Shown one piece after another: positions 55,318-55,818 of a stretch of 63,647 bases of DNA (position 1 is its first letter; each line of letters opens with the position of its first letter). Where the stretch lies: NCBI GenBank assembly GCA_004293445.1, contig RDYP01000015.1, positions 1-63,647 of the forward strand, given 5' to 3'. This DNA is from Verrucomicrobiota bacterium (GTDB taxonomy: Bacteria; Verrucomicrobiota; Verrucomicrobiia; Verrucomicrobiales; Akkermansiaceae). The notes beneath the pieces were generated by a model. The model was not told where the DNA came from and did no database searches. It was given only the letters and a program-made list of their open reading frames with translations. Made by a program: the position numbers and the translations under genes.

Positions 55318-55818
55318 GTGATTCGTATTATCCTTTTTCTATGTATGCTTTCGATGCCCCTCGAGGCGATGCAGATCTTCGTCAAAACGCTGACTGGGAA
55401 GACCATCACACTCGATGTCGAGCCTTCTGACACCATCGAAAACGTGAAGGCCAAGATCATGGACAAGGAAGGCATTCCACCCGATCAGCAGAGACTGATT
55501 TTCGCTGGCAAGCAGCTGGAGGACGGTCGCACCCTCTCCGACTACAACATCCAAAAGGAGTCTACAGTGCACCTCGTTATTCGGGTCATTCGCACGTCGG
55601 AAATTCGCATTGTAAGCTCACAATCATCGACCGGAACCGTGCTTCTCTCGGTACGGTCCAACGTCGCCGGCCCCGGTGTCATCGAGCATTCGCCGAATCT
55701 TGCAGACGGAAGCTGGACGACGATCGCGAGCGATGTGGCCCTCGACAGCGAATGGGCCGAGCTATCGGTCACAATTCCCATTTCCAGCCGTGGTTTCTTC
55801 CGCCTAGTGACACCTTGA
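55318..55818 (+). CDS. Secreted ubiquitin-domain protein without diglycine
   Basis: Residues 1-17 ([17 protein letters not shown]) form a signal peptide; cleavage after Ala17 would leave ubiquitin Met1 as N-terminus. Residues 18-91 match human ubiquitin 1-74 except E16D, Q31M, L67V, L71I, L73V and R74I (68 of 74 identical). All seven ubiquitin lysines (6, 11, 27, 29, 33, 48, 63) and the L8/I44/V70 patch are kept. Gly75-Gly76 are replaced by Arg-Thr, so it cannot be conjugated in the normal way. A bacterial domain of about 75 aa follows ([15 protein letters not shown] ... LSVTIP ... FFRLVTP), like those ending verrucomicrobial secreted proteins. It was probably acquired from a eukaryote. It may act outside the cell, as Bacteroides fragilis ubiquitin (BfUbb) is known to be exported. 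Confidence 0.95.

Follow-up and report, generated by a model that had tools for sequence, protein, structure and literature searches.

Contig RDYP01000015.1 of a Verrucomicrobiota bacterium of the family Akkermansiaceae (assembly GCA_004293445.1) carries a gene for a nearly unchanged ubiquitin of eukaryotic type, set between a predicted export leader and a C-terminal domain. The whole stretch analysed, hereafter the window, comprises 63,647 nucleotides, and the gene is a single open reading frame (ORF) on its + strand, 55318-55818, which starts with GTG and encodes 166 amino acids. Directly established are its sequence, the fusion, the loss of ubiquitin's terminal Gly-Gly (GG), the lack of a ubiquitin-conjugating enzyme (E2) match in the genome, the wide occurrence of such proteins, mostly purifying selection on the ubiquitin, and phage-borne homologues. 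The protein is one member of a little-described family found across many bacterial groups and some phages. The parts of the gene are as follows.

55318..55368, + strand: predicted Sec signal peptide, 17 amino acids, hydrophobic (translation; helix at residues 2-10 of the AlphaFold2 (AF2) model)
55369..55587, + strand: ubiquitin domain (residues 1-73) with all seven lysines and an intact I44 patch, without the LRLRGG tail (PF00240, PDB sequence search, AF2)
55588..55815, + strand: C-terminal six-stranded beta-sandwich, 76 amino acids, ending FFRLVTP (AF2 strands 94-164; C-terminal relatives)
55816-55818, + strand: stop codon (translation)

Positions 55369-55590 translate without stop codons into ubiquitin residues 1-74, and 68 of the 74 (92%) are identical to human ubiquitin, the changes being E16D, Q31M, L67V, L71I, L73V and R74I. 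With a Pfam PF00240 match at E = 1.7e-31 this resemblance is not chance, and the seven lysines are retained along with L8, I44, H68 and V70. The initial annotation, made from the letters alone, had described just such a near-unchanged eukaryotic ubiquitin with intact lysines and an intact L8/I44/V70 patch, and on both points the translation agrees. Its interval, 55369-55590, does delimit ubiquitin 1-74, but the ORF is wider, running from a leader that begins at GTG 55318 to a further domain that ends at 55818. It had also placed the domain closer to the eukaryotic protein than BfUbb of Bacteroides fragilis, as is borne out by the 63% identity of BfUbb to human ubiquitin (PMC3352274). PF00240 has only one match in the 3.35-Mb source genome, namely this gene (E = 1.3e-31).

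The end of the domain is altered: G75 and G76 have become R and T (G75R, G76T), so that the LRLRGG tail is gone from the protein. Because the GG is lost, this ubiquitin is expected neither to be activated or conjugated nor to be released by ordinary deubiquitinases. No match to E2 (PF00179) was found in the source genome, which is 97.4% complete; the ubiquitin-activating enzyme (E1) was not searched for. An E2 match occurs in one of 14 ubiquitin-positive genomes of the phylum, the sole E2-like match among them lying at L116 (G038:C35:73716-73967). Judged from its sequence, the window ubiquitin is not expected to take part in conjugation.

The AF2 model was built from 23 alignment rows and has a mean predicted local distance difference test score (pLDDT) of 85.8, with 81-93 across the 10-residue blocks of residues 21-90; a single-sequence fold was poor (pLDDT 56). 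A PDB ubiquitin chain superposes on the model with Z 16.9 and a root-mean-square deviation of 0.7 over 77 residues, the matches listed being ubiquitin and informing on the ubiquitin part. A PDB sequence search aligned the domain to human ubiquitin residues 1-73, and the domain belongs to ubiquitin by sequence family (PF00240) and by fold alike. The model places a helix at leader residues 2-10. Cleavage is predicted, in keeping with sequence and model, after ...LEA and directly before ubiquitin Met1. The predicted mature protein has 149 amino acids, and the sole Cys of the ORF sits in the leader. Two phage homologues (L178 and L179) share the leader length and the GTG start. A promoter and terminator scan gave no match on the + strand.

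Ubiquitin this close to the eukaryotic protein had been called very rare in bacteria, a claim that I reject on the following counts. A pattern scan of 84,980 species genomes returned 416 stretches encoding relatives; the best 80 of the 416 were examined, and the locus counts thus cover the nearest relatives only. As L044 encodes the same protein as L005, there are 79 distinct loci. Under a simple hydrophobicity rule a hydrophobic leader stands directly before ubiquitin in 65 of the 79 and is absent in 14. According to record titles, the 65 leader loci span 11 phyla plus two unassigned: Pseudomonadota (24), Bacillota (18), Verrucomicrobiota (8), Bacteroidota (4), Cyanobacteriota (2), Actinomycetota (2), and one each in Methanobacteriota, Thermodesulfobacteriota, Synergistota, Lindowiibacteriota and Chlorobiota. 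Most come from metagenome-assembled genomes (MAGs), with possible mis-binning; 17 of the 65 are in records not titled MAG, whose carriers include Dyella, Ruminococcus albus 8, Saccharibacillus sacchari, Pseudohaliea rubra and Paracidovorax valerianellae. Within the phylum, 13 of 387 genomes have a PF00240 match, 12 of them with a leader and one (G342, L004) without. Within the family, the full window protein matched in 28 of 260 genomes and the ubiquitin part was covered in 20, among which G593 has internal stop codons and G617 has no leader by the same rule. Two loci of the family, L143 and L144, have the same DNA (100%) as L032 and L098, whose records are titled Akkermansiaceae. Three plasmid records have a match, one of them close, and the copy on a plasmid of R. 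albus 7 is annotated merely as 'ubiquitin family protein'. Among the papers listed in literature searches, none dealt with a secreted bacterial ubiquitin other than BfUbb.

Some relatives depart from this pattern. Five Actinobacteria-titled loci (L077, L081, L092, L093 and L102) encode ubiquitin proteins without a leader, and at L092 and at L102 two genes of this kind are adjacent, with an additional stretch of about 150 amino acids. Tandem pairs of leader-ubiquitin genes occur at L002 and L007, in two genomes of the phylum; their ubiquitins are weakly constrained.

The leader-bearing proteins share a common design. I compared 113 distinct ubiquitin segments, 85 with a leader and 28 without, the leader rows having been picked by hydrophobicity alone. 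Position -1 of the 85 leader rows holds A in 68, G in 9, S in 6 and C in 2, that is, A/G/S/C in all 85, and residue 1 is Met in 81. Given this Met, the predicted cut would expose ubiquitin's own N-terminus. The GG at 75-76 is retained in 5 of 85 segments with a leader versus 17 of 28 without. A scan of 71 leader proteins matched 46 Pfam families, a few of them ubiquitin-like; among the matches listed are an autotransporter barrel in 21 proteins, SLH in 4, IPTL-CTERM in 3-4 and a type IX secretion system (T9SS) tail in 2. Stand-alone leader-ubiquitins make up 4 of the 85 rows, the other 81 having a further C-terminal part or otherwise not standing alone. I also analysed nearest neighbours, chosen by ORF length rather than gene calls (134 of 139 picked; five were dropped as repeats, as ubiquitin genes or as coming from L113). 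No recurrent partner family was seen among the 134: the commonest Pfam family, AAA_14, occurs in 4 (among 25 of 159 families listed) and no PHROGs family in more than 2 (among 25 of 36 listed), and on these counts a conserved partner gene was rejected. The -1/Met1 pattern, the loss of GG, the export domains, the scarcity of E2 and the absence of a recurrent neighbour suggest that leader-ubiquitins are exported, mostly non-conjugatable and without a fixed partner gene.

The I44 face is the usual docking site on ubiquitin. Splitting the leader rows by changes from human ubiquitin over residues 1-70 gave 74 near-eukaryotic rows with at most nine changes, to which the window protein belongs, and 22 more divergent rows. 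In the near-eukaryotic rows the I44 face is kept at 0.941 and the surface at 0.954 (shuffle P 0.22), and most changes fall at positions that vary among eukaryotes. Each of the seven lysines is retained in 78-97% of the 96 rows. The conserved I44 face of the near-eukaryotic group is compatible with recognition by ubiquitin-binding partners.

Full-length homologues of the window protein number two, at 62% identity (L170/L178 and L169/L179, on contigs of G503 and G511), and both sit among phage genes, with terminase on one side and a small lipoprotein-like ORF plus an endolysin on the other. The carriers are genomes of another genus (g3) of the family and the contigs are short (8.5 and 5.4 kb); the hosts are uncertain because the carrier genomes are fragmented (one is 12.6 Mb with 6% contamination). 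The order in L170 is small and large terminase (phrog_57; phrog_15, 7e-82), ubiquitin gene, endolysin (phrog_894, 3e-27) and portal (phrog_21); in L169 a terminase end precedes the ubiquitin gene, after which come a different endolysin (phrog_6523, 3e-29), a partial portal and a head maturation protease (phrog_53). In both, the start of the ubiquitin gene overlaps the terminase stop codon (GTGA). The source genome has a related prophage of its own (L177, G000:C6:76000-95000, on the 133-kb contig C6), with a terminase 72% identical and a similar terminase-to-capsid order, yet without a ubiquitin gene. There the terminase is followed by a 125-amino-acid ORF and then by DNA like the endolysin of L169, and both phage carriers conserve the end of this ORF downstream of their ubiquitin gene. 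For the phage copies, though not for the window copy, this prophage represents an empty slot. In an IMG/VR contig, L113, a leader-ubiquitin-IPTL-CTERM gene lies about 0.9 kb before a terminase. Among the loci compared, the phage proteins of L169 and L170 matched only in L141, L142, L169 and L170, and ubiquitin had no match at E 1e-5 in a phage genome collection; for these reasons phage carriage of homologues, while real, is not general. Two further IMG/VR contigs deserve mention. One, with phage-like replication genes, encodes a leaderless 246-amino-acid protein with N-terminal ubiquitin (L175:5001-5741, PF00240 1.2e-19). The other has an intact leader-ubiquitin ending LRLRGG (L107:1565-2101) and a cyclophilin-type prolyl isomerase gene (3905-4231) 1.8 kb away.

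The initial annotation had proposed a comparatively recent transfer from a eukaryote. Between the window protein and L178 the ubiquitin is 85% identical (ratio of nonsynonymous to synonymous change, dN/dS, 0.035) and the C-terminal domain 47% (0.35); against L179 the figures are 82% (0.063) and 49% (0.27), all of these ratios being rough because synonymous change is near saturation. That saturation, with the same architecture in another genus and the gap between 82-85% and 47-49% identity, led me to reject a recent transfer; the relationship of window and phage copies is old and their ubiquitin selected, and the fusion of leader, ubiquitin and C-terminal domain is older than their split. Ten of the 15 near pairs of leader proteins have a ubiquitin dN/dS of 0.05-0.16; of the 10 near pairs in which the remainder of the protein aligns well, 6 show stronger constraint on ubiquitin than on that remainder. 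The notion that ubiquitin is always more constrained than its partner, with which five chosen pairs agreed, was dropped on this full set. Purifying selection keeps ubiquitin in most lineages, not all.

What might such a protein do? I infer the export, cleavage, final location, target and effect of the window protein, and tentatively favour a secreted, non-conjugatable ubiquitin working outside the cell, most likely on eukaryotic microbes, a reading that could well be wrong. Sec would export the protein and signal peptidase I would cut directly before Met1, and the mature form would display folded ubiquitin with its native N-terminus, followed by the beta-sandwich. Without GG it would escape activation, conjugation and removal by ordinary deubiquitinases, and it could imitate ubiquitin outside the cell, as a decoy or ligand that engages the ubiquitin-binding proteins of eukaryotic microbes grazing on the bacterium, hosting it or coming into contact with it. 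Horizontal transfer, in part via phages, would spread the gene family. I prefer such a mimic because BfUbb has drifted to 63% identity and bovine ubiquitin has no activity on BfUbb-sensitive strains (PMC5705921), whereas the eukaryotic sequence is maintained here; a bacterial target would offer no obvious reason to keep it. The broader proposition, that a cross-phylum class of exported, non-conjugatable, near-eukaryotic ubiquitins, in part phage cargo, is used by free-living bacteria as a eukaryotic ligand against protists, strikes me as unlikely; if true, ubiquitin would have an extracellular use with which phages could endow their hosts.

Several observations weigh against a eukaryotic target. 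In the 22 divergent rows conservation of the I44 face is 0.562, against 0.701 elsewhere on the surface (shuffling of positions gives P about 0.002, uncorrected and one of several comparisons), which speaks against a ubiquitin-binding partner in that group, or for a changed one. The phage pair L178 and L179 is weakly constrained (dN/dS 0.445 and 0.54), ubiquitin dN/dS reaches 0.21-0.56 in 5 of the 15 near pairs, and the attached part is the more constrained in 4 of the 10 alignable ones (three among the L002/L007 copies, and L040-L052, where ubiquitin hardly differs). A phage late-region location suits bacterium-directed roles equally, and an extracellular protein must still meet a ubiquitin-binding partner, most of which are cytosolic. 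It is because ubiquitin is the more constrained part in only 6 of the 10 pairs that I hold the favoured reading no more firmly.

One alternative is an antibacterial role of the BfUbb kind: the exported, GG-less ubiquitin would inhibit related bacteria at a surface or periplasmic target, its C-terminal domain serving to tether or deliver it, and phages would spread it as a competition gene. BfUbb follows the same export logic, its mature form beginning exactly at Met1 and lacking the terminal GG, and it kills kin strains with apparently no immunity gene (PMC5705921). The place of two homologues beside terminase, endolysin and a small lipoprotein-like ORF, the lack of a recurrent partner family among the listed families of the 134 neighbours, and the existence of stand-alone leader-ubiquitins point the same way. 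A later BfUbb paper reportedly names a peptidyl-prolyl isomerase as its target. Against this, the window domain, at 92% identity to the human protein, is far nearer than BfUbb (63%) to the bovine ubiquitin that leaves BfUbb-sensitive strains unharmed (PMC5705921). The window protein also has no Cys after the leader, whereas BfUbb ends in one, and 81 of 85 leader rows do not stand alone. I judge this alternative rather unlikely, and keep it in play because the export design and the phage setting fit.

Ubiquitin could instead be a structural cap, a fast-folding, protease-resistant N-terminal domain of exported or virion proteins whose surface has no partner. It is joined to many unrelated C-terminal parts (the 46 Pfam families over 71 proteins), it heads a leaderless protein on the phage-like contig L175, and conservation in the divergent rows is higher in the core (0.845) than on the I44 face (0.562). 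That ubiquitin is not the part under stronger constraint in 4 of 10 near pairs also suits a cap, and this mixed result slightly raised my estimate of it. A mere cap should nonetheless drift at its surface, which stands at 0.954 in the 74 near-eukaryotic rows, and each lysine is kept in at least 78% of the 96 rows. I regard a cap as improbable.

The contig, of 63.6 kb, belongs to a genome rated 97.42% complete and 0.12% contaminated, and ordinary genes lie on both flanks: queA, a glycosyltransferase, an AAA_14/DUF4143 ATPase, aconitase and an FAD-linked oxidase. Pfam assigned the flanking proteins to AAA_14/DUF4143, to no family (159 amino acids) and to aconitase, with no adjacent E1, E2 or JAB; E1 and JAB were not searched for genome-wide. 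Five other proteins, of which four belong to the same genus and one to the same family, have segments like the C-terminal domain that finish 3-7 residues short of the stop. All 18 genomes of the genus have the aconitase gene acn and 1 of 18 has ubiquitin, the genus's four other matches to the window protein covering the C-terminal domain only. A tblastn search for seven window neighbours beside acn in 11 relatives (four as 5.7-6.5 kb pieces) found no match; a clean empty site for the window copy is therefore lacking. The guanine-plus-cytosine (GC) content is 0.525 in the ubiquitin part, 0.51 in the next gene (55898-56377) and 0.629 in the window. Comparison of codon usage, which the initial annotation had advised, came out divided: GC at third codon positions (GC3) in the ubiquitin part is 0.726, within the local range (0.767 +/- 0.099 in 52 slices of nearby genes, 33% of them lower), while its codon-use index, 0.603, is in the lowest tenth (9.6% of the 52 slices are as low). 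The index of gene 55898-56377 is below even that, and the ubiquitin gene thus occupies a slightly atypical patch. Contamination, mis-assembly or a non-functional recent insertion of eukaryotic DNA, with which the lower GC, the low codon-use index and the unshared flanking genes beside acn would agree, is very improbable, and I rejected it in the main because the ORF joins a genus-typical C-terminal domain and the leader in frame with ubiquitin and has full-length homologues in two other genomes; the recurrence of the design in records not titled MAG, the purifying selection and the ordinary GC3 also stand against it. With leader and genus-typical domain in one ORF, a real bacterial gene encoding a ubiquitin of eukaryotic type is supported.

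I abandoned the attempt to find the donor by phylogeny. A tree of 132 domains over 72 columns (95 with a leader, 28 without and 9 eukaryotic) is unresolved, with 3 of 126 inner branches starred, and settles neither the donor nor the number of transfers. On it the leader label changes 23 times versus 32.4 when shuffled; the starred branches force only 2. Homologues branching apart from eukaryotic ubiquitin throughout the phylum would have refuted the reading of the initial annotation: homologues do run through the phylum, but the tree does not separate them from eukaryotic ubiquitin. By identity, the nearest to the window ubiquitin is presumably that of Plasmodium (69 of 72).

Among known systems, the window protein appears nearest to BfUbb in export and GG loss and nearest to a Globodera rostochiensis effector in layout, and a member of neither class. 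Like BfUbb it lacks the terminal GG, is patchy within its lineage and comes without conjugation enzymes (for the source genome, as far as E2 is concerned); its predicted signal peptide would put the mature start at ubiquitin Met1, where that of BfUbb puts it (PMC3352274, PMC5705921). BfUbb differs in being a stand-alone mature protein of 76 amino acids that ends in Cys, as against the 149 predicted here, and the window protein in its closeness to human ubiquitin over residues 1-74, its 76-amino-acid beta-sandwich and its two phage-borne homologues. The secreted ubiquitin carboxyl-extension effector of G. rostochiensis, as described in PMC5705921, likewise has the order signal peptide (predicted in the window protein), ubiquitin, C-terminal extension, and may serve by analogy as a precedent; its extension, however, is 12 amino acids long and cleaved in the plant, whereas the window protein is predicted to have a folded domain in that place and lacks the usual GG cut site. 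Eukaryotic ubiquitin-ribosomal protein fusions and polyubiquitin share a near-identical ubiquitin and an in-frame C-terminal fusion; the window protein differs in having a leader and no GG junction, with no E2 match in its genome. The Globodera extension is said to be cleaved in the host after ubiquitin's GG. Bacterial leader-ubiquitins such as those of Dyella and R. albus 8 have a leader, ubiquitin at Met1 and mostly no GG (kept in Dyella OK004), but their C-terminal parts are different or absent. In bacterial ubiquitin-like (BIL) conjugation operons the genes for E1, E2 and JAB protease are adjacent, an arrangement not seen among the flanking proteins of the window.

Ubiquitin counts as a hallmark of eukaryotes, BfUbb being the one bacterial exception that is well studied. 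Should leader-ubiquitin fusions prove common among environmental bacteria and phages, the molecule would have a second role, as a module that works outside cells without being conjugated, and its constrained surface would raise the question of what binds it. A 'eukaryotic' ubiquitin in a bacterial genome is also not always contamination.

Two minor features of the surroundings remain. Gene 55898-56377, of low GC, encodes a 159-amino-acid protein without a Pfam match that resembles the phage family phrog_29029 (function unassigned) at 3.6e-14. A dispersed repeat of about 134 nucleotides occurs at 53462-53677, 55013-55184 and 60164-61133; about six head-to-tail copies lie downstream of aconitase, and inverted copies flank the AAA_14 gene, one of them just upstream of the ubiquitin gene.
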